From the NCBI RefSeq assembly GCF_000003815.2, contig NC_049992.1:21398242-21462241 (forward strand): 64,000 bases of DNA. Reading direction: 5' to 3'. The notes beneath the pieces were generated by a model. That model worked only from the letters and a program-made list of their open reading frames with translations, did not search any database and was not told where the DNA came from. Below, piece after piece: positions 5,213 through 62,589 of this stretch. Position numbers and translations under genes: made by a program. Source of the stretch: Branchiostoma floridae. Its lineage: Eukaryota > Chordata > Leptocardii > Amphioxiformes > Branchiostomatidae. Position 1 is the first letter of the stretch. Each line of letters opens with the position of its first letter.

Positions 5213-5384
5213 GTATGTCCTTCTTTGTGTTTGTCAGTTTCTGGAACTGATTCTGCTGACCGATGGACATAACAAATAATAAGCAAACAAACAAACAAAC
5301 AAGGTTTCTTGTCATATCAATAAATGAATGAATGAAGACCTTTTGCCCAACCGAGCTAAGTACAGGTCACAACAAGACAAAGCA

Positions 5385-8400: not shown

Positions 8401-11400
8401 TTGTAGGATTGGTTTACCACATTTCAACATTTCGTTTGTAACAATATCTTTACCACTAGATTGGTTGTTTTTCAGTTTGGAGATGGCTAAATCTAGGTCT
8501 TTGACTTTTATTAGAGAATCCATTATGGAATTCTTCGTAGGGGGAGAAGGGAGGGAATATGACTTAGGGCATTTTTCGAGTTATCAATTAAAGTTTCTGA
8601 GTCACTGATGGAAGATTTGTCTATTCTTAAAAGTTTCAACCACGCCTCGTCCGTTATTTGAGAACTTGTTGATGAAAGTATCGTTTCCTCTTTTTTAACC
8701 TTCCTCTCACTTCTGAGTTCAGTGGATTTTTCTCAAGTAAAGATGCTGAATTTTTTAACTCGCGTTTCATTTTATTGCAACTTCTGTCAAACCATTTCTT
8801 ATTATTACTCTTGCAGACGTGGCCTCCAAAAAAAACGTACGGACAAATTGCACGTACGACGGGTACGACTGATACCGAGCTTAACATTCGATGGCTAGAA
8901 CTAAAATGTGGTTAAAGGGTTCACGCGAAAAAATGTTCCAGAAGCGGTTGGTTGCAGATTACATAATCACTACTACCACTTGGTTGATGACACGTGAATT
9001 TACTTGGCAAATCTCCGGCTATCCTGCCGTTAAGTATTTTAAGATCTCCTTGAATGAATGGTTTTATTCGATCAACATGATCAGACAAAAAGTATATAGC
9101 AGCCACAGGCTGAATTGCATACTTTTACACTTAAAATCTTTGGTTTATGCAATTTACAACTCTACATTTAAAACGGACTAATGACAAGATTCTTATAATC
9201 AACAATAAATGATATTTCAAAACAGATAGCACAATGCGTGGTCACAAGTTCATTCAGGAGGTTGATAATGTACGGAATAGGACTGTTCTTGTATCGGTTT
9301 GTCTTAATTGTGGCTAGAAGATGTTTGTTTCTAGTGTTCCTGTTGCTGATGTCGCCGCGTGTACTCCTTGAATACTAGTGCGGCCACAAATCTGCTAAAC
9401 TTGTTGAAGAGTGGGGGGGGGGGTGCTGGCGTTATGTTATTTGCACCGGAAAATTAGAGGTAGCATAACAGCAAATGACAAAATAATTGGATTGTATACG
9501 TATTCACTGTTATAGATGTGCTATACTTGACATGTAAAATGTCCTGACATGTTCCTTTCACAGCTCATGAAAAATGCATAGTTGTATAATTTGATTACCA
9601 GAGTTCAAGATGGCGTTTGACATGTTTGACGCTGACGGAGGCGGTGACATCAGTACCAGGGAGCTGGGCACCATCATGAAGAAGCTGGGACTGAATGTGT
9701 CACGTGACCAGCTGCAGGATATGATAGACGAGGTCGATGTAGACGGTAAGGAGTTAGAGAAACTACTCAAGCTACATTTTGAGTAACGTTCTGCTAGATG
9801 GAAGAAATGCCATGTGATTTGTAAAGGTGGATTGCTGTCCTGGCTCCAATTCTTTTTTTCCAGGACATCTGATTCACAAAACCCTTGTCGAAACAAAAAC
9901 ATTTGTCAGAAAATTTTCATTATTCTCATATACTCCAGCTTGGCTATGAAATATCTATGCGTTGCTAAAAAATGTTCTACTTCATCCGTGAATGCCCCTT
10001 TAACCTTCAAGCTGCTAAGGTAGCCATTTGGCACCATTGAAGAATGATCCTTATTGTGGCTATGTTTTTAATGTTTGTTTAACTCATTGATGGTCGTTTT
10101 AACTCTTAAGCAAGTGGCACGATCGACTTCGAGGAGTTCCTGGAGATGATGGCTAAGATCATGAAAGAGGAGAAGTCTGAACTTCCTGACGATGAGATTC
10201 GGGCTGTTTTCCAAGTCTTCGATACCAACAAAGACGGTTTCATTTCGGGAAGAGAATTTAAGGTAGTGGCATAATAAACACTTGTTTTAATAAGAGATAT
10301 AAGGAATGTAAACGCTAGATTTAGTGGTAGCATAACTTGAGTTGTTCCGTTTCTCCCACTAACTCTACAAGTATTAATGATATTTACCTCAAGTCATTCA
10401 TATACAGAATAACTACTGCGCTTAGCCCAGGTAGGCAAGAACTTGCAAGTAAAGACCATCATTTGTGAGAATTTGAGTTGAGTTGGATTGTTCCAGGATT
10501 ACCTGGACGACATGGGCGAGGATTTGACAGAGGAGGAAATGGAGGAGATTCTGGATGAGTGTGACACGAACAGGGACGGCAGGCTGGATCTGGACGGTTA
10601 GTTCTGCTGTGTGCACGTGCTGTTGTGGTGTTCGTTCTGCTGTGTGCACGTGCTGTTGTGGTGTTCGTTCTGCTGTGTGCACGTGCTGTTGTGTTCGTTC
10701 TGCTGTGTGCACGTGCTGTTGTGTTCGTTCTGCTGTGTGCACGTGCTGTTGTGTTCGTTCTGCTGTGTGCACGTGCTGTTGTGTTCGTTCTGCTGTGTGC
10801 ACGTGCTGTTGTGGTGTTCGTTCTGCTGTGTGCACGTGCTGTTGTGGTGTTCGTTCTGCTGTGTGCACGTGCTGTTGTGTTCGTTCTGCTGTGTGCACGT
10901 GCTGTTGTGTTCGTTCTGCTGTGTGCACGTGCTGTTGTGGTGTTCGTTCTGTTGTGTGCACGTGCTGTTGTGTTCGTTCTGCTGTGTGCACGTGCAGTTG
11001 TGGTGTTCGTTCTGCTGTGTGCACGTGCTGTTGTGGTGTTCGTTCTGCTGTGTGCACGTGCTGTTGTGGTGTTCGTTCAGCTGTGTGCACGTGCTGTTGT
11101 GGTGTTCGTTCTGCTGTGTGCACGTGCTGTTGTGGTGTTCGTTCTGCTGTGTGCACGTGCTGTTGTGGTGTTCGCTCCTTCAAGCTGCAGTGCAACGGCT
11201 ACTGTTTGCTGGCCAAATGTCATACAGAAATAAAAGCAATATATAGTACGCAAGGAAATCGTTACTCAGGCAACTAGAGTTCGGCGACCTCATACCTCCA
11301 TGAACATTTAGAGCTTTCGTAAATTTCATGCAATTGACTAACACATTAACATAATTTATGCATGGTATTGTTCATCATTGACTAACGTACACATGTCACA

Positions 11401-13630: not shown

Positions 13631-13820
13631 AACATCTGAACAGTTCTGTAAACATCTGAACAGTTCTGTAAACATCTGAACAGTTCTGTAAACATCTAAA
13701 CAGTTCTGTAAACATCTAAACAGTTCTGTAAACATCTAAACAGTTCTGTAAACATCTAAACAATTCTGTAAACATCTAAACAGTTCTGTAAACATCTAAA
13801 CAGTTCTGTAAACATCTGAA
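13631..13820 (+). repeat. 20-bp minisatellite in the TnC-1 3' region, about 9 units
   Basis: CAGTTCTGTAAACATCTAAA (or ...CTGAA) is repeated with almost no change just after the TnC-1 stop codon, probably inside the 3' untranslated region. Confidence 0.93.
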
Positions 13821-14300
13821 ACGACCGTATGTCATTCAAACGACTCAGATAAAGATGTTGACCGAGTGTGGACAAACTTGTAAGCCATACGCTTCTTGCT
13901 AGTGAACATTTAGTGTTAAGATTTTCATCAGTCACATAATGACAATGCAAACAATACACGTCAAACCTGGTGGAAGACGAAACACATTTTATGTCAAACT
14001 GTTCGTTCGTTCTACGATCACGAAAGAAAAGAGCTGTTTGAAGAGACCACCAAATTCCACCCAGATTTCATCACATTTACTGACTTAAAAGTAAACAGTT
14101 CTCCTTCTAACATCACAAAACCCACACATAATAGAAAAGGTGGAATGTTTTGTCTTCCACTGGCTCTGAAAAAGTAGTCGAACCCAATAACACAGAATCT
14201 AAAGTTAGCTTTTAAACTAGAGTAAACATCTTTGATATTGTTTTTAACATTGTTTGAATCTCTCATTTTACCTGCAATTATCCCACGGGCATGGATTTGC

Positions 14301-30924: not shown

Positions 30925-33900
30925 CTGCAAGGAAACACTCACAGTTATCACAACCAGTCCTCAAATGTTCAAACATACAAGTGTATATGCAGTAGCCATA
31001 GCTATGAATTGAAACCATCAATTTTGAAAATTAAATGTGGAAATGTGACATTAAAATGATGAGATATTCTCTCAAAGGGATGGGAAATTTCTGAACTGCA
31101 AAGAAATTCAGAGAGCTACAGCAGCTTGCAGGGAAGAAGATAGTGGAATGTAAGGAAGAAAGACTGATGCAGCCAGAAGTTGTTCTAACAGCCATACTAC
31201 AGAATACAGTGGGTCATCATTATATTCTGTCTCGTTCATTCCTTGGGAGGAATTTATCTAAACCATGTACATACTATATGTATAACATTGTGTAGTGAAA
31301 ACGTTATAGGACTCAATGTAATCTGTACCTCTGTTATATTTTTATCTGACCCTTACCTCCCTCATGACCTCAATGAAAAGCGGCCTGCAGGCCGATTAGA
31401 GCTTCTCATGAATAAATTAAGTTTCAAACAAACAAACAAAAACAGCTGCATGTTGAAACCTAAATAAACCTACTTGCAATACTTTATAGCTGAATTAATG
31501 TTACAGTAACCAATTTGAAATTCGCAGTGACAAATATTTTGAGCTTTATGCATGACATAAAAATATCTTAAGTAGACGTAGCTACAAAAACAACTGCTGA
31601 AAGGCCTCACCTCTATTACAAACACTATGATGCAGTATGCACTCACGATGGCCAACAAGACCAGTCGGAAATGGAATGGCATATCCACCTTCAGCTGGGA
31701 ATGATGGGAATGATCAAATTAGTGTTCATTGTGATGTCAGACCAGAGGAGAAAACAAACTACATACTGGATTGTTTGGAATGTGAAGTAAAACGTTAACA
31801 TCCTTCCATGATAAATTCTAAATTTCTTCTTCAGCAAGAACAATGTGATGGTGGTCCATATATGATTAAAGAACATGTCACTCAGTATAAATGATTCTTG
31901 GCAACTAATTGGAGCAGCCATCACACATGCCTTTATTTCTATCTTAATTATATAAGTCTGGCAGCATTCCATCAAACAGGCAATAGCAAAGTCATCAAGC
32001 AAAACCTACCTCAATGAACTTGGCCAGAGGACTGAAGGGGTGCAGTAAAAGCAGCGTGCTGAATCCCAGCAATATCATCAGGGACATCATGAACACATCT
32101 ACAGGTACAGGTACAGGTACTACATGTTAGATAGAGTACCTGTACATATGAACACATCTACAGGTACAGGTACAGGTACTACATGTTAGATAGAGTACCT
32201 GTACATATGAACACATCTACAGGTACAGGTACAGGTACTACATGTTAGATAGAGTACCTGTACATATGAACACATCTACAGTACAGGTACAGGTACTACA
32301 TGTTAGATAGAGTACCTGTACATATGAACACATCTACAGGTACAGGTACAGGTACAGGTACTACATGTTAGATAGAGTACCTGTCCATATGAACACATCT
32401 ACAGGTACAGGTACAGGTTTACTACATGTACATGTTAGATAGAGTACCTTTACATATGAACACATCTACAGGTACAGGTACAGGTACTACATGTTAGATA
32501 GAGTACCTGTACATATGAACACATCTACAGGTACATGTACAGGTTTACTACATGTTAGATAGAGTACCTGTACATATGAACACATCTACAGGACTGGTAC
32601 AGGTACATTTGTTTTGTACATGTACTACATGCATATGTTAGATAGAGTATATGTGTACCTCCATGTACATATGAACACATCTACAAGTACATGTACAGGT
32701 TTACTACATGTTAGATAGAGTACCTGTACATGTGAACACATCTACATGTACAGGTACATGTACTGTGAGGTATTACATGTTTTGCTAGATAGAGTACCTG
32801 TACATATGAATCTTGTTGGAACAAGGAGGCTTTCAACCTCCTTGGTTGGAAGTAATGGTAATAACTTACAGTTAGTGTATAAGGGCCTGCGGTAGGGCCT
32901 GCCCTTAGAGAAGGCTGCAGCCAGGACTATGTACAGATAGCTGGTCACACTGAAGACCACAGTCGTCTCATAACACAGGATGTTGTCTGACTTGGGGTCT
33001 GGTTTCAAGGGAACAAACCTGAACAACAAACAACATTGAATTCACTGAATATGCTGTGAACATGCTGGGATATTGAAGAAATATGGAACATACGATACAA
33101 GTCATGTACATGTAGGTCATATTGGGCCTAGTAAGACAATGGTGCTGTAAACAAAAATCAACCTTTATGGAAAAAAAAGAAATAGTGAAGAACCGTTACA
33201 TTATCGACCGGATCTATGGCTGAATGGGTCAAATCGGACTTACACCATCATTTTCCCGCCATTTTCGTGTCTACACTAGCAGTAAAGTTTTACGTCATAG
33301 CAGTTGGTGACGGACCAAAAATAAATGAAAATTCTTGATAGTGTACGTCCATTTTCTCATGACTTTCTGTATGTTCATGCAGGAAAGGAAGGAACAACAG
33401 AGAATGTATAAAGGTACATAGCGGCAGTTAATTGTGCCGTGTTTCTTCCTGGCGGTATTATTGAACCCCCTCCCAACCACGCGCCCATTCTCCGTGTAAT
33501 TCCATCGTTCTCCAAGTAAGTCCATCTTCAGTCCTCCTTGAGTAAGTCCATTTTCAGACCATTGGACTTACTGTGGCTGAAAAGAGGATTATGGTCCATT
33601 CCCACGAAATACATATTATGCATTTGGTATACAGAACAATGGGATCTTCATTTTTCTGCTTTCACATCAGATTCTTCTTCTTTAACTTTGGAATTGATTT
33701 TTGGCATTCTTCAACTTTGACCCATTTTCTAAAATTGAAGGCATACATTCTGCAGCTGCTTTGCACATTTTACAGTATAGTCCAAACTTTTTTTACCTTT
33801 GGGAAATGGAAGAAAATGGATGCATGCAGATGTTATCCATATCATAAAATCAACATGGCCACAGTACCTCAGAAGATGTCCCATTGATACATGACGTGTT

Positions 33901-45900: not shown

Positions 45901-48900
45901 TGTTCCTCTGACACACATCTGAGGGATAAAAACTTTGATTTTAGAACATGCATCTAAGTAAAAATTCCAAATGATTTTAAAGCCATAAACAAGAGATTAC
46001 CACCCTATACATGCACATTCAACATTTTTGTTANNNNNNNNNNNNNNNNNNNNNNNNNNNNNNNNNNNNNNNNNNNNNNNNNNNNNNNNNNNNNNNNNNN
46101 NNNNNNNNNNNNNNNNNNNNNNNNNNNNNNNNNCTTTAAGGCCCAATTCACACGAGGAAAATTTCTGGTCTTGCAACAATGACCTACGATGAAGTCGTAC
46201 GTCAGCTTTCTGTTTAATAAAAAGTGGATTCACACGAAGCAAAAAATGCGTTGTTTGCCAAAGACATACAACATTGTCAGATGCCATCATCGTGCAGACA
46301 GAAATTTTTCCTTGAGTGAATCTGGCCCAAGTCTTGTTAGCAGACTAGCCCTTGGTACTAGATAAGCTGGGCAGCCATGCTGAACAGTCAATACTCTGTC
46401 CTGCATGACATTGTGTGACTACTCACACATAAAACAGACAATCATGTACATGTACCTTTGGTATAAGGTATGGGAAGTGATTTCTGATGACAGCAAAAGA
46501 CTTCCCACTGACTGCAAAGTGATATGTTCCTTCAGGTTCCTCTATTTGTATGTTCTGGTAGCTCTACATGTTGGGGAGGAAAACATACATTTTGTCCGTA
46601 CACATCTTACAATGTATGTCAAACCATTCTCCTATGCAGCATTGAATCTATGTCATAGAAGCTGCTCTAGATTCACCTCTGCGTAATCGTCTTGTTGTCA
46701 ATGATGAAATGAAAGTCTTCTAAATAAGCAGACATTTGAGATTTTGGGTCTCCTTGGTGAATAATCTTGGTGGTAGTATTCTGCACCCAAAGAATATTGA
46801 AATAAAACTGGGAGATTTAAGCAATTTAACAACAGAATTTAAAAAAAAATCAAATTATGAACCTCTAAAGAATAACTTTAAAAGCAACAAGGAATGTTTA
46901 GCAAAGTAATGGCAAAAGATTTTTGGATTCTTCAGGCACAATTCATAACTACAAAAAAAAATAAAATCCCTCAAAAATCCATGATAAACACAGTTAAACT
47001 CATGTTATAAAGTTTTTACATACCTCACAATATGTTTCTTCAAGTTATTTATGAATAAAAATCATGAAAAGTAATTCAATGACATGTCCTCCCAGCTTAC
47101 ATATAATATAGACTGAGGTAGCGTTTAAAAGTCTTTGACTATGGATAAAATGTGACATTTTAGAAGAAGCCTAATACTACAAAGAACTCACCATGTCATA
47201 CTCTACCAAAGGTTCACTCATATCTGCACCACTGTCCCACTTCCCTGGCTGCTGACCCTGGCCCTGCACCACACTGTCTTCTGTGGGATGTTCCGAGTAC
47301 GTCCATGTAATGTGCGCAGGTTGTCCTTCCTCCGGAGGGTTGGCAGTCACCAAGATAACTGTGTCATTGGACAGCACCATTCTGCAGTTCCTGGCAACAC
47401 TGACAGCAGTCAGCATGTTGTCACCTGGTAAGGACAGTCACACAACAGTCAGCATCAGTACTGTCTGGTCAGGTTTTGACTACATGTACTCTATCAATTT
47501 TAGACCTGATGTTGTCAATGATGAAAAAGATATAGTTTACCTCACCTGATACTATGTATGACTGTCCTGATGTTGTAAATGATGATGTGGCTACCTCACC
47601 TGTTACTATGACAGTCCTGATGTTGTAAATGATGATGTGGTTACCTCACCTGTTACCATGACAGTCCTGATGTTGTAACTGATGATGTGGTTACCTCACC
47701 TGTTACCATGACAGTCCTGATGTTGTAAATGATGATGTGGTTACCTCACCTGTTACCATGACAGTCCTGATGTTGTAAATGATGATGTGGTTACCTCACC
47801 TGTTACCATGACAGTCCTGATGTTGTAAATGATGATGTGGTTACCTCACCTGTTACCATGACAGTCCTGATGCTGTAAATGATGATGTGGTTACCTTACC
47901 TGTTACCATGACAGTCCTGATGTTGTAAATGATGATGTGGTTACCTCACCTGTTACCATGACAGTCCTGATGTTGTAAATGATGATGTGGTTACCTCACC
48001 TGTTACCATGACAGTCCTGATGTTGTAAATGAAAGGTGTGGTTACCTCACCTGTTACCATGACAGTCCTGATGTTGTAAATGATGATGTGGTTACCTCAC
48101 CTGTTACCATGACAGTCCTGATGTTGTAAATGATGATGTGGTTACCTCACCTGTTACCATGACAGTCCTGATGTTGTAAATGATGATGTGGTTACCTCAC
48201 CTGTTACCATGACAGTCCTGATGCTGTAAATGATGATGTGGTTACCTTACCTGTTACCATGACAGTCCTGATGTTGTAAATGATGATGTGGTTACCTCAC
48301 CTGTTACCATGACAGTCCTGATGTTGTAAATGATGATGTGGTTACCTCACCTGTTACCATGACAGTCCTGATGTTGTAAATGATGATGTGGTTACCTCAC
48401 CTGTTACCATGACAGTCCTGATGTTGTAAATGATGATGTGGTTACCTCACCTGTTACCATGACAGTCCTGATGTTGGCCTCCCTGAGTTGTTGGATGGTG
48501 GGTGTGGTTTCTGGCTTGAGAGCATTTTGCATAACCATCAGGCCCAGAAATGTTAGGTCAGTCTCAACTTGGTCCCTGTAGTAGAATCATTAAATTAATA
48601 CACTGAGGGGATGACATTTATTAAAAACTAAGGTGATGTCTTTGGTGTTGTTTGTTTGTGCGTGTGACGTTAATTGCTTGCTTGCGTAAATCATTCTGGA
48701 TATTTTTGGTCAGCATAACTTACATGTTGTATGAATGGCTGGATGGATTGAAAAGATGTTTGGTATGCGGGTAGGCCTTGAAAAGACGAAAGTTAAGATC
48801 AAGTTTAGGCCCCTAGGTGTGTGAACTTCTTAATGAATTTCAGATTTTTTTTCTGGACATGCTGGTCTCTTTTCATGTAACTTAAGGAAGAGGTGTATAG

Positions 48901-51900
48901 ATTTCAATTTTGTAATAATTTTGTAATAATTTTGTGAATGAATGCAGTAATTCCTTTGTGCTAAATGGTGGGAATGTGACATGTGTAAGCTTATCAATTG
49001 AAAGTGAATAAGTTAAGAGGAAAGTGGTATTGGTATTCTACCAAATAACTTTGAATTCACACACATCATACAATATTAATATGTGATTTTGGTAGATTAT
49101 AACTTAAAATATATCATTCTTATTTGTATGATCACTAAAACAAGATAGAATAATATAAATCTATCATTTCATGGTGGTATACATACATGTACACAGTCAT
49201 ACTAGTATTGAGTTGTAGCATTATGTGATCTATTATTCATCAATGTAAACTTGGCACAAAAATTTTGGAATATTGATTTTGGTTGATCATATTTCCTTTG
49301 TTTCTGCATCAATATCAATGTATCATATATCAATAGAAAGCTTGATTGTGTGATTTCCTTTCAGGTAATCGGTATTTAATCATGATTTAATTGAGAACTG
49401 CACGTCTTTTAATTGAATTTTAATCACCTGTAGACAGGAACATAATCAAGATCTGTACTGTACAGTTAATCTAAGTACAGCTTCCTTGTTGAAGTTCCTC
49501 AGTTCTTTTACAATGTGCCAAAGTGCAAGTAATGTGAGCTGGTGGTATGACGTCTCTGAACTCTTGCTCACTTCTCAAATTCAAGACGAGAGGAACATAC
49601 AGTACAAAGATTTCACATTCAAGTCATTAAACAAAAAAGTTCTGCAATTCAGCTGTACAATAATGTATTCAATGTTCCTCTGAGACAGATATTTTTGACC
49701 TTCAAGTTGTTGAATGTGTAACCTCCACTATATGTACAATGTACATTTAAAAACTGAGTTTTTCATAATGGGAGGAGGAAAGTCCTACCTTTGAATTTTC
49801 TGTAAATGATGAAACTTGATGCTTGTGTCAAGCATTTTCCAGGCAAAGGCAATGACTCTGAAGCCTTGGAGAGTGTACCTCATCAGAGTGGTGTGGAAGT
49901 CAGGAGGCACTGAGACAGAAAGTGAAGACAGCATTAAATTATATATTATCACTATTAAGATTTAACTTCAAAAAGCACATGAATTTCATTTTGTACCGAT
50001 CCTCTTAATCAGAATTTACTAGCCCTACAAGTGTACTATTTGCGTAGTGTCATAGTCTTTATATCATACCTGGGCCGTGAAAATGTTCGATACAGGTTGT
50101 TCCGGACTGTGTGATAACTTTCTGTATCACACAGGCTTCGAAGTTGTATCACACAGGCTTCCTTCGAGTAAATTGAACTATTTCGAGCAGGCCTAGTGTG
50201 GCACAGTTGAAAATTTGAACAACGGGTTGGGACGTTAGAATTGCTGTTGTTACACATTTTCTCAACTTCTGGTGCATTTCATATCGAAACATGTGTTTTC
50301 TTAGGTGAGTATGACATAAATAAGATACAACATGGTGTATTCCGCATCACCCCCGGTCCCGGGCTTGTACCTCGGGTGATACAGAAAACAGAGTGTTGTA
50401 TTCTATTGTATACTGACTGACAGACAGACTAGCCTACATGTACCTGGCCACAGACTGTAAGATACAGAAGAGACTGGAGCGGCTCAAGAAAGGGGTTCCT
50501 CTGAGAGAGCAATCAAACCCTGCCATGAGAGAGAGAAAAAGCAACTCACCAGTTTCTTTAATACAAAGAGAAGCCACCATTTCTGGTGCACCCTTTAAGT
50601 AAACATCCATGTTTCGATTCCCCAGAGTCCGTGTGATGACACTCATCCGCTGAAGACTGGACGAGAAAGGGAACTGGCGAAGAATTCCGATCTCATATGG
50701 AGTCTGGTAGGGGTAAAACAGTATTAGTGTAAGATAGAAGCAATGCTACACATAAATCATCATAGGTGTACATACATGTGTATACACAGGGTTGGACAAG
50801 TCTTCAAGTCCTATTGTCCCGGGCAAGTGAAAATGCTGATCGGGCAAGTACATGTCCTACTCCACTTGCCCGATTGGACAAGTAAGATTTTTTTTCTAAT
50901 GAGTGACATTTCATATACTTTTCAAAGTCATGGCATCAAGCATAATGGTGAATACAGAAAAATAGAGCCAATAAGAAGAAATCCATGGATGGAAGTGAAA
51001 ATACATAGAAAAATTTGAGTGCAAGCGAAAGGTTTGTTCGGGCAAGTAAATTTTGTATGTACTTGCCAGATAGGACAAGTGAATTTCAGAAAACTTGTCC
51101 AACCCTGATACATGTAGGAGCAAAATAATATACATTTGTGGTCAAAAAGGCCAAATAACTCATTTTTGAAGTGACATATGGCAAAGGTGTTGATGAGGTT
51201 CTGTGGGCAAATGTCCAATGCACCTCTGTACCAAATTTCAGGTCATTAGGTTGTAATACCAGGGCACAGGGGCCCAAAATATATATATTTTTAGTCCAAA
51301 AATGACCCAAAACCCTAAATATAATAATTTCTAAGCCCTCTATCAAAAAAGTAAAAACAATGTCTTGGGGTATTGGCTATCTTTACCTTCATGCCAAATT
51401 TCAGTGAATCCATTTGAAGATTTGACAGGAGAAGGAGAAGAGACACAGCAAAAAGCAAATTATTGTAGTATCATAAATGGATTGAAATATAATGAAGAAT
51501 CTAGAGTTTTGATGTACTATACTTGGTGTGTTTAATCATTTGTTTAACCTTCCTGAAAACTTTTTTAACCAAACTTTGTGCTTTTGAACAATTGCGTCAG
51601 TTTGGCAAAGAAGATGTCCCAAATATGAACTAAATTGACATGCCTATTGGACAAAGTGCAAAGAAGTCTAACTTGCAGACGAGTTCCAGATCTTGCAGCA
51701 ATGTTGACTAACCTGACTGCTGGCTCCCATGATGAAGGTGTCAGCTGTAACTGGCTTCACTACAGTTGGTGCCAAAATGTCAAACCTGGTGTTGTCTGGG
51801 CCAGGCTCCTCTAGAAGCTAGCAGAAGAACAACAAAGAATCATTTAAAATGCCACCTTCAAACTACTAGGCAAAACGAAATTAGTTTTATTGATGAAACA

Positions 51901-60900: not shown

Positions 60901-62327
60901 CAATGGAGTACCTCCCCTTGACTTAAGACATTATTTGAGGCGAATGTAACACAAACCTGTCCTGATGACCACAGCCTTGACTTTCTCCCCTCCGTAGTAC
61001 CTGGTCTGGATCACCTGGGTACCACAGAACAGGGTGTGGCGCTTGTGTTCCTCTGAGATGTACACACAGGGATCCTGCCCCTCTGTGGGAGGGGGGTTGG
61101 GGAGGGGGGTCTTGGTCACCGGAACACTCTCCCCTGTAGGGGCAACAATCAGAATGGGTCACATCTACGTGTGGTCCATGACTATCCACCAGAAAATAGT
61201 CCCACTGTAGTCTGACAGAACAAATATCTTCAAACTTATGGAATGTGTTTTTAATATGAATGTCATATTCAATGATTTGTTATTAAGGGATGATGTTCAT
61301 TAGGATATCACCATGGTTGACTGACAGTGGCTATATAACATAATGGAAAGAATGAAAAAATCCTCACAAGTCCAATGCAAAAATTCAAAATGCACTCACA
61401 GCACGAATGAACTCCACAAAATAAACTATTCCAAAATCCTAGCATCCCCCCGTAAAAGCTAACCAACTGCAGCAGAAAATCTATACTGTATGTAAAATTA
61501 AGTACAATGAAGCCAGCACAGAAACGTTCCCTTTTAAACATGCCAGAAGGGTTATACATCATTTTTCAATTCACACCTGATTAAGTACACACATTAATGT
61601 CTTCTTTAATTACCTGTGAGCATACTCTCATTAACGATACAGTTGCCAGTAATAAGGACTGCGTCACACGCCATCATGGTGCCGTATGGAGGGATGGTGA
61701 TGACGTCTCCTGGTACCAACTCCTGACCAGGGATGTCCTCATATACTGCACAGACAGGAACACATGCCTCTTAACTTATGTTATGTTGTCATCTTTACTT
61801 TAATGTGCTGCAGTTCAAGCTGGAGATGCACATGTACATGTACATGTACACTGTCCAGGCAGCTAAACTCTGGAAAAGGCTAACTGATGCAGATCCTGAG
61901 AAAAGAACTCTGAGTCTACTACCAACAGACCTAACTGAAGTGCCCTTTGTGACAGAAACTGTCATTTTCATAGAGGATGTTTAGTAGCCATAGCCCAACT
62001 GTAGGGCTGATATCAGTTAATCTGTTAGGACTTGACCATGGTCATTACTGACCAAAGGGGGGCCACATATAACGTGCAATAAATGTTTTGAAATGGCAAA
62101 ATTCCACAGCATTGTTCTTAACGTCTAACCAACCTTTTCTTTAAAATCAAATGCACAAACCAACATAGCTTAGAGAACAACTGTCAGAACATTGTCATTG
62201 CTATCATTACTGTCAGTGATAATCAAGACTGTCTAAAACCTGAAGCACAGACTGTTTTACCACTGTCTCCTCTCCACACGGACACCTCTGCCTCCAAGGC
62301 CACCATGTCCCGCAGGGTTTCTGCTTG
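30751..62327 (-). CDS. ATP13A: P5B-type transport ATPase, ATP13A2/ATP13A3-like (5' end off window)
   Basis: Twenty-three GT-AG exons with continuous phase give 953 residues and TGA at 30751-30753. Vertebrate ATP13A2 and ATP13A3 are polyamine exporters of late endosomes and lysosomes; the same role is inferred here. Visible motifs: TGES (residues 66-69) of the actuator domain; [10 protein letters not shown], the P5B hallmark in M4; phosphorylation Asp in [12 protein letters not shown] (residue 240, codon 54332-54334); KGAPE in the nucleotide-binding domain; [18 protein letters not shown]; then C-terminal membrane segments. The C-terminus ([10 protein letters not shown]) and RRPLYTN recall ATP13A2, whereas QFPFSS and KQQPW recall ATP13A3, so this is best read as an ortholog of the whole ATP13A2-5 group. 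Roughly 250 N-terminal residues are missing beyond the right edge. No frameshift or stop was seen. Confidence 0.92.
31290..31442 (+). mobile_element. 3' tail of a non-LTR retrotransposon
   Basis: The sequence with ACTCAATGTAATCTGTA, CCTCCCTCATGACCTCAATG and AAAAGCGGCCTGC(A/T)GGCC, ending in an (AAAC)n tail, is shared with 59410-59540, where it follows a coding remnant. Confidence 0.8.
31611..31694 (-). CDS. ATP13A: ATP13A exon: M10
   Basis: Twenty-eight codons: [20 protein letters not shown] and CIIVFVIE. The acceptor CCAG at 31695-31698 is preferred; AAG six bases further in would also keep the frame. Donor GTGAGG. Confidence 0.88.
32010..32098 (-). CDS. ATP13A: ATP13A exon: M9; its 5' edge is part of a minisatellite
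   Basis: Acceptor TGTAG, then [20 protein letters not shown] and FSPLAKFIE. Phase requires the T carried from the previous exon (Tyr). The first 10 coding bases and the acceptor recur in each unit of the intron array. Confidence 0.9.
32089..32815 (-). repeat. About 59-bp minisatellite containing a 3' splice site and exon start, about 11 units
   Basis: Units begin near 32091, 32150, 32209, 32268, 32325, 32391, 32458, 32517, 32578, 32672 and 32733. On the - strand each carries CCTGTAG followed by ATGTGTTCAT, the real acceptor and first coding bases of the M9 exon. Inside the unit there is also a short ACAGGT subrepeat. The array makes up nearly all of the 771-bp intron. Confidence 0.93.
32870..33018 (-). 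CDS. ATP13A: ATP13A exon: M8 region
   Basis: It encodes [39 protein letters not shown] and [10 protein letters not shown], ending one base into the next codon at donor GTAAGT. Confidence 0.93.
33940..34090 (-). CDS. ATP13A: ATP13A exon: M7 region
   Basis: It encodes [20 protein letters not shown], a hydrophobic segment ([20 protein letters not shown]) and LKQQP, ending inside the Trp codon. LV.QRP.G.L is a P5B signature loop. Confidence 0.93.
35247..35319 (-). CDS. ATP13A: ATP13A exon: M6
   Basis: It encodes [20 protein letters not shown] and VALF, phase 0 to 1. NLGD.Q.L.IDL matches M6 of the family. Donor GTAAGT. Confidence 0.93.
35553..36628 (+). mobile_element. 1.08-kb AT-rich dispersed repeat, copy 2 (ATP13A intron)
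   Basis: It has the same start, interior and terminal CCTCCATTTTTTCATGGAGG hairpin as 11277-12357. The high similarity of the last 500 bases suggests a fairly recent common origin. Confidence 0.85.
36880..37681 (-). mobile_element. Non-LTR retrotransposon C-terminal end and 3' UTR (downstream piece)
   Basis: The - strand reads [40 protein letters not shown], a zinc-knuckle-like [18 protein letters not shown], and ends in a TTGAC-repeat tail near 36880. Its upstream continuation lies beyond an inserted element at 38752-39247. Confidence 0.85.
37684..38749. mobile_element. TIR element inserted in a retrotransposon, TA target duplication
   Basis: Inverted ends AAGCCCCGGTCACAAAGCGC with similarity over more than 35 bp lie at 37684 and 38749, flanked by TA (37682-37683, 38750-38751). 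Removing the element restores the retrotransposon reading frame across the site. A second right-end copy (CGCGCTTTGTGACCACGGCTT) at about 38615-38637 suggests an internal duplication. No transposase was seen. Confidence 0.88.
38752..39247 (-). mobile_element. Non-LTR retrotransposon post-RT region (upstream piece)
   Basis: The - strand has an open frame with [40 protein letters not shown] and ending MFKERLK at the insertion point. It continues in frame at 37681. The 5' part with the RT core is absent. Confidence 0.85.
39445..39541 (-). CDS. ATP13A: ATP13A exon: M5
   Basis: It encodes [20 protein letters not shown] and [20 protein letters not shown]-like sequence followed by F.YMALYS is typical of the entry to M5. 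Donor GTAAGT, phase 0. Confidence 0.94.
39632..39800 (+). mobile_element. tRNA-derived SINE remnant in ATP13A intron
   Basis: A head with GGCACAATGGTTAGGATATT (box A-like), box B-like GGGTTTGAATCCC, then CTCTTGGGAAGGCACTTACA, the same tail block as the SINE near 21.6 kb. Confidence 0.7.
39958..40067 (-). CDS. ATP13A: ATP13A exon: [19 protein letters not shown]
   Basis: It encodes [20 protein letters not shown], then [16 protein letters not shown], phase 0 to 2. This is the canonical stretch between the hinge and M5. Confidence 0.94.
40454..41535. mobile_element. Inverted-repeat element, family TAACGGGGGCCGCC, copy 3
   Basis: The left end is TAACGGGGGCCGCCCTAAGA and the right end GGGGCACCTCCCGTTA. 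The interior at 41340-41500 matches copy 1 in inverse orientation (CATGAACC...AACTAG.GATGGAGCGCC). Confidence 0.75.
42032..42074 (-). CDS. ATP13A: ATP13A short exon: hinge GDGANDCG
   Basis: Forty-three bases encode [14 protein letters not shown], with the Gly before it split across the intron. GDGxND is the magnesium-binding hinge of the phosphorylation domain. Donor GTGAGT, phase 0. Confidence 0.94.
43250..43822 (+). mobile_element. Penelope-like retroelement fragment
   Basis: Shifting frames give [45 protein letters not shown] with [15 protein letters not shown], and [20 protein letters not shown]. YRxxxHxDQYxNFxSNH followed by HKxxVVRTLxHRA is characteristic of Penelope-like reverse transcriptases. 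Stops and frameshifts show it is dead. Confidence 0.75.
43823..44636 (+). mobile_element. Diverged relative of the 1.08-kb AT-rich repeat
   Basis: It begins CAGTTCGGATACCTCATACA, has AATTTGCATAATTAATG motifs and a CAGACAGACACACAG run, and ends in a CTATACCTCCATTTTTGATG hairpin-like tail. Confidence 0.7.
45839..45918 (-). CDS. ATP13A: ATP13A exon: GTVFARMSP
   Basis: It encodes [20 protein letters not shown] and ESLQDL, ending in phase 2. GTVFARM.P.QK is conserved before the hinge motif. Donor GTAAGG. Confidence 0.93.
46034..46133. other. Assembly gap of 100 N
   Basis: Exactly 100 undetermined bases, the usual placeholder for a gap of unknown size. It lies in the ATP13A intron between exons 45839-45918 and 46456-46507, and no coding sequence is lost because phases on both sides agree. 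Confidence 0.98.
46138..46328. mobile_element. Short inverted-repeat element next to the gap
   Basis: AGGCCCAATTCACACGAGGA on the left is matched inversely by TCCTTGAGTGAATCTGGCCC on the right, with further pairing of AAATTTCTG. Length about 190 bp. Confidence 0.8.
46456..46507 (-). CDS. ATP13A: ATP13A short exon (52 bases) next to the assembly gap
   Basis: It encodes the end of S plus [17 protein letters not shown], matching the GKSFAVI..HF..L.PK block of P5B ATPases. The acceptor chosen (TCAG, 46508-46511) is the one that keeps phase; the alternative GCAG four bases upstream breaks the frame. Donor GTACAT. Confidence 0.85.
46677..46780 (-). CDS. ATP13A: ATP13A exon: variable region before the FHF block
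   Basis: It encodes [20 protein letters not shown] and [14 protein letters not shown], phase 0 to phase 2. It corresponds to the poorly conserved stretch before S-G-x-S-F in the family. Acceptor GTGCAG, donor GTGAAT. Confidence 0.8.
47192..47424 (-). CDS. ATP13A: ATP13A exon: [10 protein letters not shown] and variable insert
   Basis: It completes MVTGDN and continues [18 protein letters not shown], followed by a hydrophilic variable segment ([20 protein letters not shown]). It ends in phase 0 at donor GTGAGT. Confidence 0.93.
47537..48476 (-). repeat. 50-bp minisatellite containing an exon end and 5' splice site, about 19 units
   Basis: The period is 50 bp. On the - strand each unit holds the last 26 coding bases of the MVTG exon, the donor (GTGAGG, GTAAGG in two units) and about 20 intron bases. 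The real junction at 48451 is the first unit. The array fills almost the whole 1026-bp intron. One unit has a two-base insertion near 48032, and units furthest from the exon are more diverged. Confidence 0.95.
48451..48575 (-). CDS. ATP13A: ATP13A exon ending in MVTG; its 3' edge is part of a minisatellite
   Basis: It encodes [20 protein letters not shown] and then [10 protein letters not shown], phase 1. The last 26 coding bases (48451-48476) and the donor GTGAGG are repeated about 18 more times in the following intron. Confidence 0.94.
49789..49909 (-). CDS. ATP13A: ATP13A exon: nucleotide-binding domain, second half
   Basis: It encodes [20 protein letters not shown] and AFAWKML, ending at QKIQ in phase 2. 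GFRVIAFA is the conserved strand of the domain. Confidence 0.9.
50550..50703 (-). CDS. ATP13A: ATP13A exon: nucleotide-binding domain with KGAPE
   Basis: It encodes [37 protein letters not shown] and [14 protein letters not shown] and KGAPE are P-type nucleotide-binding signatures. Donor GTGAGT, phase 1. Confidence 0.94.
50787..51106. mobile_element. MITE with CAGGGTTGGACAAG ends
   Basis: The inverted pair CAGGGTTGGACAAG (50787-50800) and CTTGTCCAACCCTG (51093-51106) bounds 320 bp, with GGGCAAGT motifs repeated inside both arms. The ends resemble hAT elements, but no clear 8-bp duplication is visible. Confidence 0.8.
51130..51350. repeat. Dispersed repeat, inverted copy of 24335-24545
   Basis: It carries ACTCATTTTTGAAGTGACAT and CAAATTTCAGGTCATTAGGT, the complement of motifs at 24.4-24.5 kb. 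Confidence 0.65.
51713..51817 (-). CDS. ATP13A: ATP13A exon: nucleotide-binding region
   Basis: Thirty-five codons, phase 0 at both ends: [20 protein letters not shown] and onward to GASSQ. PTVVKP is shared with ATP13A3-type proteins. Donor GTTAGT. Confidence 0.9.
52100..52241. mobile_element. 142-bp MITE, TA duplication, CAGTGGAAGCC ends
   Basis: The inverted ends CAGTGGAAGCC are flanked by TA on each side (52098-52099, 52242-52243) and AATTGCAC pairs further in. The TA target fits the Tc1/mariner/pogo group. Confidence 0.88.
52318..52512 (-). CDS. ATP13A: ATP13A exon: TGTLTEDG, start of cytosolic loop
   Basis: It begins [19 protein letters not shown] and ends [13 protein letters not shown]. 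The donor GTCAGC after TGG is weak but is the only site keeping phase 0 with the next exon (LLEEP). Length 195. Confidence 0.92.
53029..53656. mobile_element. Pogo/Tigger-like non-autonomous element, CAGTCAAACCTG ends
   Basis: The inverted ends CAGTCAAACCTGTCTATAGC and complement (with TATTAGCGGCCACC on the right) are flanked by TA. GTGGCC(A/G)CTAT motifs repeat inside. A relative lies at 58182-60390. Confidence 0.85.
53838..54332 (-). repeat. Scattered AACCT-type repeats running up to the donor of the phosphorylation-site exon
   Basis: Degenerate AACCTAACCT tracts occur at 53838-53920 and again at 54280-54330. On the - strand the donor reads GTAAGGTTAGGTTAGG, so the splice site is embedded in the tract. 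Confidence 0.7.
54329..54542 (-). CDS. ATP13A: ATP13A exon: M4 and phosphorylation site
   Basis: It encodes [20 protein letters not shown], then [20 protein letters not shown], and ends exactly at CFDK. PPALP identifies the P5B subclass (P5A has PPELP). The phosphorylated Asp codon is at 54332-54334. The donor GTAAGG begins a run of AGGTT-like repeats in the intron. Confidence 0.95.
55331..56509. mobile_element. TIR element, TAACGCTAGTTAACCTTTAT ends, 1.18 kb
   Basis: The left end (55331-55355) is inverted at 56485-56509 with about 24 of 25 bases pairing, including ACCTTTATTCGTT. No transposase domain was recognised inside. Confidence 0.82.
57040..57062. repeat. (GGTGA)n short tandem repeat
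   Basis: Four to five GGTGA units in an ATP13A intron, about 70 bases from the exon at 57128-57260. Confidence 0.85.
57128..57260 (-). CDS. ATP13A: ATP13A exon: approach to M3/M4
   Basis: It encodes [28 protein letters not shown] and a hydrophobic run ([14 protein letters not shown]) forming a membrane segment. It ends in phase 2 at donor GTTTGT. Confidence 0.9.
58182..60390. mobile_element. Second CAGTCAAACCTG element, enlarged by insertions
   Basis: The left end CAGTCAAACCTGTATTAGCG (58182) and right end GCCGCTATAGACAGGTTTGA (to 60390) belong to the family at 53029-53656. The extra length holds a retrotransposon remnant at 58965-59545 and other sequence. Confidence 0.75.
58965..59545 (+). 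mobile_element. Non-LTR retrotransposon C-terminal remnant with 3' tail
   Basis: It translates in broken frames to [20 protein letters not shown] and LTSFKRLLK, then a 3' UTR shared with 31290-31442. Confidence 0.8.
60957..61133 (-). CDS. ATP13A: ATP13A exon: end of actuator domain
   Basis: It starts with the Glu-Ser of TGES, then [19 protein letters not shown], then [20 protein letters not shown] and AVVIRTG. The HTLFCGT block is strongly conserved in P5B ATPases. Phase 1 at both ends. Confidence 0.92.
61614..61745 (-). CDS. ATP13A: ATP13A exon: actuator domain
   Basis: It encodes [20 protein letters not shown] through [25 protein letters not shown] and VNESMLTGE are typical of P-type ATPase actuator domains. 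The TGES motif is completed by the next exon. Donor GTAATT. Confidence 0.92.
62261..62327 (-). CDS. ATP13A: ATP13A exon (first in window): membrane-to-actuator linker
   Basis: The acceptor TTTCAG is just above 62327 and the donor GTAAAA lies below 62261. It encodes [20 protein letters not shown] and DS, ending in phase 1. The ETLRDMV stretch matches the start of the cytosolic actuator region in the family. Confidence 0.85.
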
Positions 62328-62589
62328 CTGAAAACACAAGCAAAACTTCAGCTAACTTTTCAAACCAAGTGCCATAAGGGTTTGACAATGCGACATAATG
62401 TCTACTTTCCTATCTTCACTGTGCGCTCATTGGTTGATCCTGAATCACATGATTCTCACAACCATATAAGTACAAGGGATGATCACCCTACTGCCTCTTG
62501 TTGGATCCATCCGCAACGCCGAGGTCGCCTGGCGATGGACGACCAGGTCTCCGCCGCTTGCGGTTCCACGACCGCGTTTCTCGCCGCCG

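Follow-up and report, generated by a model that had tools for sequence, protein, structure and literature searches.

The ATP13A2-like gene and its repeat-filled intron

The window analysed here, a 64,000-nucleotide stretch of the Branchiostoma floridae genome, carries on its minus strand a gene whose 15 exon pieces, when concatenated (657 aa) and compared with solved structures, matched ATP13A2 with a best E of 8.1e-197 (8iem chain P). This similarity takes in both the DKTGT and the TGDN motifs, and the peptide RTVMVTGDN, read across the splice from 48451 to 47424, is aligned with ATP13A2. Judged by these alignments, the gene is a P5B-type, ATP13A2-like ATPase, and an earlier note that had placed an ATP13A gene with its MVTGDN motif at this locus was right to do so. 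The features that concern us are listed below in the direction of transcription, with slashes marking splice junctions.

49789..49910, minus strand: upstream exon, ending ...QR, start approximate
48451..48575, minus strand: ATP13A2-like exon of 125 nt, ending ...RTVMVT+G, source of the repeat, with the acceptor ...ctactacag upstream; assigned by homology
48445..48450, minus strand: real 5' splice site GTGAGG in ACAG/GTGAGG, phase 1; assigned by homology (MVTGDN reading into the next exon)
47425..48450, minus strand: intron of 1026 nt, mostly array
47558..48476, minus strand: minisatellite with a 50-bp unit of 26 exon-end and 24 intron bases (TRF period 50, 18.4 copies, 97% matches)
47540..48400, minus strand: 18 decoy donors CAG/GTRAGG, first G at 48400, 48350, 48300, 48250, 48200, 48150, 48100, 48050, 47999, 47949, 47899, 47849, 47799, 47749, 47699, 47649, 47599 and 47545
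47999..48050, minus strand: ninth unit, 51 bp, with the ACACCTTTC variant; it is the ninth in the paralog array too
47192..47424, minus strand: next exon, beginning GT GAC AAC..., with the acceptor ...cttaccag; assigned by homology

The intron between the upstream exon and the source exon measures 1213 nt. Each unit of the array consists of the last 26 coding bases of the source exon, CAACATCAGGACTGTCATGGTAACAG, followed by GTGAGGTAACCACATCATCATTTA. In all, 19 CAG/GTRAGG donors lie on the minus strand, with first G from 48450 to 47545; by homology one is the real donor and 18 are decoys, and the donor reads GTGAGG in 17 and GTAAGG in two (48250 and 47899, both decoys). Counting the copy in the exon itself, the 26-base exon end is present 18 times, with no more than one mismatch in any copy, and a search allowing up to four mismatches returned no match to it on the opposite strand or in three mononucleotide shuffles of the window. 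These counts agree with the earlier note, which had described an exon end plus 5' splice site repeated about 19 times, with some 18 decoys and two GTAAGG units; the span that it gave, 47425-48476, covers the intron together with the 26 bases of coding sequence.

Spacing between units is 50 bp, with the exception of the ninth (51 bp) and the eighteenth (54 bp). The nineteenth, outermost unit is more degenerate than the others, and private variants occur in order along the array at units 5, 9, 12 and 16-19. The units at 47899 and 48250, seven apart, have GTAAGG and an A-to-G change in common, and these shared variants suggest exchange between units inside the array. We rejected the possibility that the array is a coding repeat, as the reading frame hits a stop in the second unit.

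Other repeats and resemblances were seen in and around the gene. Three further minisatellites in the window (10597-11174, 13631-13822 and 32084-32606) have units of 33, 20 and 59 bp, respectively, and their printed consensus units are without a CAGGTRAG donor. Just past the window, at 64579-67061 in window numbering, about 20 copies of a 122-bp unit form a tandem array that lies upstream of most ATP13A exons identified. At 47420-47439 the real acceptor, GACTGTCCTTACCAG/GTGAC, shows a weak resemblance to the repeat unit, GACTGTCATGGTAACAG/GTGAG; the acceptor of the paralog described below shows none.

A colinear array in a diverged paralog

A genome search with the array returned one other place, on the same contig (C14, near 20.74 Mb) and 0.7 Mb away. 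The gene around this second array is a diverged ATP13A paralog, with 14 other matches to our partial protein at 37-76% amino acid identity. The array-source exon is nevertheless identical in the two genes (125/125 bp), and the similarity runs on into the array: in an aligned block reaching from five bases before the exon through twelve bases of the tenth unit, 582 of 593 columns are alike, the others being 8 mismatches and 3 gap columns. The paralog array has 10 units, with nine CAG/GTGAGG donors and CAT/GTGAGG in the ninth, and the 51-bp variant occupies ninth place in each array. The difference between 10 and 19 units is thus one between paralogs, not alleles. Upstream of the exon, 150 bp of intron showed no similarity between window and paralog, and six other exon matches have 69-84% DNA identity.

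From this contrast we infer that gene conversion carried the exon between the ATP13A paralogs, along with the first nine units of the array. The window array tails off in degenerate units and the paralog array stops abruptly, and these ends weakly favour a transfer that would have run from window to paralog. Alternatively, an old array may have been inherited by both paralogs and kept alike through repeated conversion. Raised DNA identity to the paralog was also seen in the exon at 60955-61053 (96% over 99 bp) and at 62410-62544 (93% over 136 columns), which are possible further conversion tracts. A fresh gain of the intron at this site was considered and rejected, as a phase-1 intron interrupts the corresponding codon of the paralog (G/GA GAC).

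What decoy use would do and how the array may be tolerated

Joined to the true acceptor, every one of the 18 decoys gives a reading frame that runs into one and the same stop, which lies in the second unit, 14 residues past MVTG. Since any decoy reaches this premature stop, use of a decoy would truncate the protein: the predicted product would end right after MVTG and would lack the GDGANDCG motif as well as the exons that follow, and the transcripts would probably undergo nonsense-mediated decay (NMD). The earlier note had expected a decoy to insert intron sequence into the domain; intron sequence is indeed read in, but the outcome would not be a mere insertion. The last decoy lies 121 nt from the acceptor in the window gene and 251 nt from it in the paralog.

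Tandem repeats across exon-intron borders have been described in amphioxus as "mirages" in Adh, TnC, globin and PGBD5 genes (excerpts of PMC3087553 and PMC3902484). The unit of the present array likewise crosses an exon-intron boundary, set by homology, and holds intact splice signals (19 CAG/GTRAGG). The explanation that we favour, and hold with considerable confidence, is that the array is a mirage that is spliced out whole under exon definition and persists as a neutral passenger. On this account, a tandem duplication across the exon end and its 5' splice site would have expanded into the intron as a minisatellite. The 125-nt exon, lying between introns of 1213 and 1026 nt, would be recognised across the exon, and the real donor, nearest to the upstream acceptor, would beat the copies downstream of it. 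The array would then be removed whole in splicing, and its copy number could drift almost without selection. With so short an exon between introns of more than 1 kb, the first donor is the expected choice. The earlier note had the splicing machinery faced with decoys of equal or better strength; the decoys are present, but they are probably tolerated under exon definition, as far as human data can be carried over to amphioxus.

Those data come from Carranza et al. 2022 (PMC9225289), here in the portions of that article available to us. There, five human minigene constructs, each with a pair of identical CAG/guaagu donors and with 365-nt introns on either side of the exon, were all spliced from the upstream donor alone, and the switch between intron and exon definition was placed near 250 nt. 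In natural human events with equal donors, the upstream one is favoured as a tendency rather than a rule (60% overall); where strength was unmatched, downstream donors were preferred, and larger constructs with weakened donors gave exon skipping. Some use of decoys in the ATP13A gene is possible, as the 121 nt between last decoy and acceptor fall in the range of intron definition, which would favour a downstream donor.

The proximity of this last decoy also bears on a different, regulatory reading, in which some transcripts use decoys, all with the same stop, so that copy number would set the amount of functional ATPase through NMD. Possible selection of the decoy 121 nt from the acceptor by intron definition, the single poison outcome common to all 18 decoys and the difference in units between the paralogs (19 versus 10) would all fit such a rheostat. 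We nonetheless consider it unlikely. A poison outcome needs no selection, and at two dynein donor arrays that we checked (see below), read-through past the real donor stops within 1-5 nt. Moreover, regular splicing reportedly proceeds unimpaired at published mirages: it is undisturbed to judge by the Adh and globin data (excerpts of PMC3087553), and in the parts of PMC3902484 drawn on here the Adh and TnC mirages are cited as not disturbing splicing, with the same suggested for PGBD5. The ATP13A array is probably a neutral passenger rather than a regulator.

The structure of the unit also invites the idea that the intron is removed stepwise through its CAG/GTRAG units, the same donor being re-formed each time and the mRNA left unchanged. 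AG does join GTRAGG in each unit, and any step of this kind would restore exon...ACAG/GTGAGG; however, the bases before CAG (GACTGTCATGGTAACAG) form no pyrimidine tract and the units look, by eye, like poor acceptors, and we regard such recursive splicing as very improbable. We give an equally small chance to an array that is an assembly artefact or has been collapsed or expanded in assembly. Copy-number errors are common in tandem arrays, and one globin mirage has been described as aberrantly assembled in the genome draft (legend to Additional file 4 of PMC3087553). On the other hand, the window units bear private variants in order, and misassembly, which the earlier note had named as grounds for discarding its reading, is made unlikely by the second, non-identical array in the paralog with private variants of its own; the copy number could still be off. 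Removal of the whole array from the real donor under exon definition remains the reading that we prefer.

Donor arrays elsewhere in the genome

We searched the genome (513,431,437 bases in 431 contigs) for three CAGGTRAG sites at gaps of 22-52 bases. This triple occurs at 5298 places (reversed control 25), and the C/T control triple, CAGGTYAG, at 748 (reversed control 231). By hand count over contig C1 from 1 to 2.40 Mb, the R form amounts to 16 arrays (100 listed places) and the Y form to two (10 places). Scaling from 16 arrays per 100 listed places would give approximately 850 arrays genome-wide, a rough estimate since places overlap and the first region is dense. Single sites counted locally with both ATP13A arrays excluded (4 CAGGTRAG versus 4 CAGGTYAG in 112,348 bp) are too few to normalise the R/Y excess. 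The counts suggest that the genome holds hundreds of such arrays, with the R and Y figures unnormalised for single-donor frequency and only some of the sampled arrays tied to exons.

The 16 C1 arrays, a non-random sample, fall into several groups: six lie in a dynein-like region, one beside a TALPID3-like exon (E 1.7e-5, below the Pfam cut-off), four beside an upstream open frame only and one within a long open frame, where it is probably a coding repeat; nothing was found at the remaining four. None of the four upstream open frames matched a Pfam family, one of them also matched no solved structure, and one of these arrays has a run of N upstream. The sample therefore links arrays to exon borders in part, and mostly within one region.

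In that region, C1:221145-244541 (L021, L031, L034, L040, L041, L042), there are six pattern arrays and a further 47-bp array in L021, and the exons read as dynein heavy chain. Four of the six arrays have a match in an adjacent exon, weak in two cases. A DNAH6-like exon lies beside one array (E 4.3e-13), and at one donor array AAA_7 passes the Pfam cut-off (E 1.7e-6). At one acceptor array AAA_7 falls below the cut-off (E 0.035) and the best family is AAA_16 (E 0.0012); at the other the match is to the dynein stalk MT, again below the cut-off (E 0.006). For the arrays at C1:221145 and 221810-222204, the search of one adjacent exon returned no Pfam family and the other peptide was too short for a search, and their assignment to dynein is our own reading. 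The exon beside the 47-bp array in L021, which is outside the 16, matches dynein AAA_6 (E 4.3e-8).

One dynein-like intron of about 1.57 kb, from C1:229973 to about 231543 (L034, L040), carries arrays at both ends, with 12 repeated donors at its start and repeated CAG/GTGACTCC acceptors at its end. Its flanks cover AAA_7 profile positions 4-39 before the intron and 40-60 after it, the latter weakly. Homology puts the real acceptor last among the 12 in the stretch examined, and the intron thus has at least 12 acceptors. As far as can be read from this layout, correct splicing would need the first donor and the last acceptor.

A tentative generalisation, to which we would give appreciable but less than even weight, is that donor and acceptor minisatellites exist in the hundreds and move between paralogs together with an exon by gene conversion. 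Many genes would then have to take the first donor or the last acceptor, and nothing short of strict exon definition or first-come commitment would make this possible. Designed minigenes are the common means of studying how identical splice sites compete, and the loci described here offer natural cases: 19 donors in the window gene, 10 in the paralog, and 12 donors with at least 12 acceptors in the dynein-like intron. Should such arrays prove as frequent as the pattern counts imply, they would also have implications for the evolution of introns and for gene conversion among paralogous genes.

Relation to known systems

The ATP13A array belongs to the known mirage phenomenon, insofar as that phenomenon is described in the excerpts of the mirage papers drawn on here. 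As in those cases, its unit spans an exon-intron boundary and a splice signal is repeated. Among globin genes, mirages are described for BflGb6 and BflGb9, with Adh and further loci cited (excerpts of PMC3087553). Mirage copy number differs between haplotypes, and the Adh mirage is somatically unstable (same excerpts); the BflGb6 haplotypes have 3 and 6 repeat units. No genome-wide survey of mirages was found by title in the literature searched, which covered non-subscription papers. Unmatched in the excerpts and titles covered are the 19 donors and the paralog copy: the array lies in another gene, places 19 donors in one intron compared with the 3 and 6 units of BflGb6, and has a colinear copy that a paralog shares along with its exon.

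Two further systems described in these sources invite comparison. In the Rogers model of intron gain by AG/GT tandem duplication, which is cited in the available portion of PMC3087553, the duplication makes extra splice signals, as it does here; unlike in that model, the ATP13A intron is shared with the paralog at the same codon and so is not a gain private to the gene. The cross-exon proximity rule of PMC9225289, as set out in the portions available to us, likewise concerns donors of equal strength that compete on one exon with long flanking introns. There the competition was between two donors in human minigenes, whereas here it involves 19 in a natural amphioxus gene, where 121 nt separate the last decoy from the acceptor.
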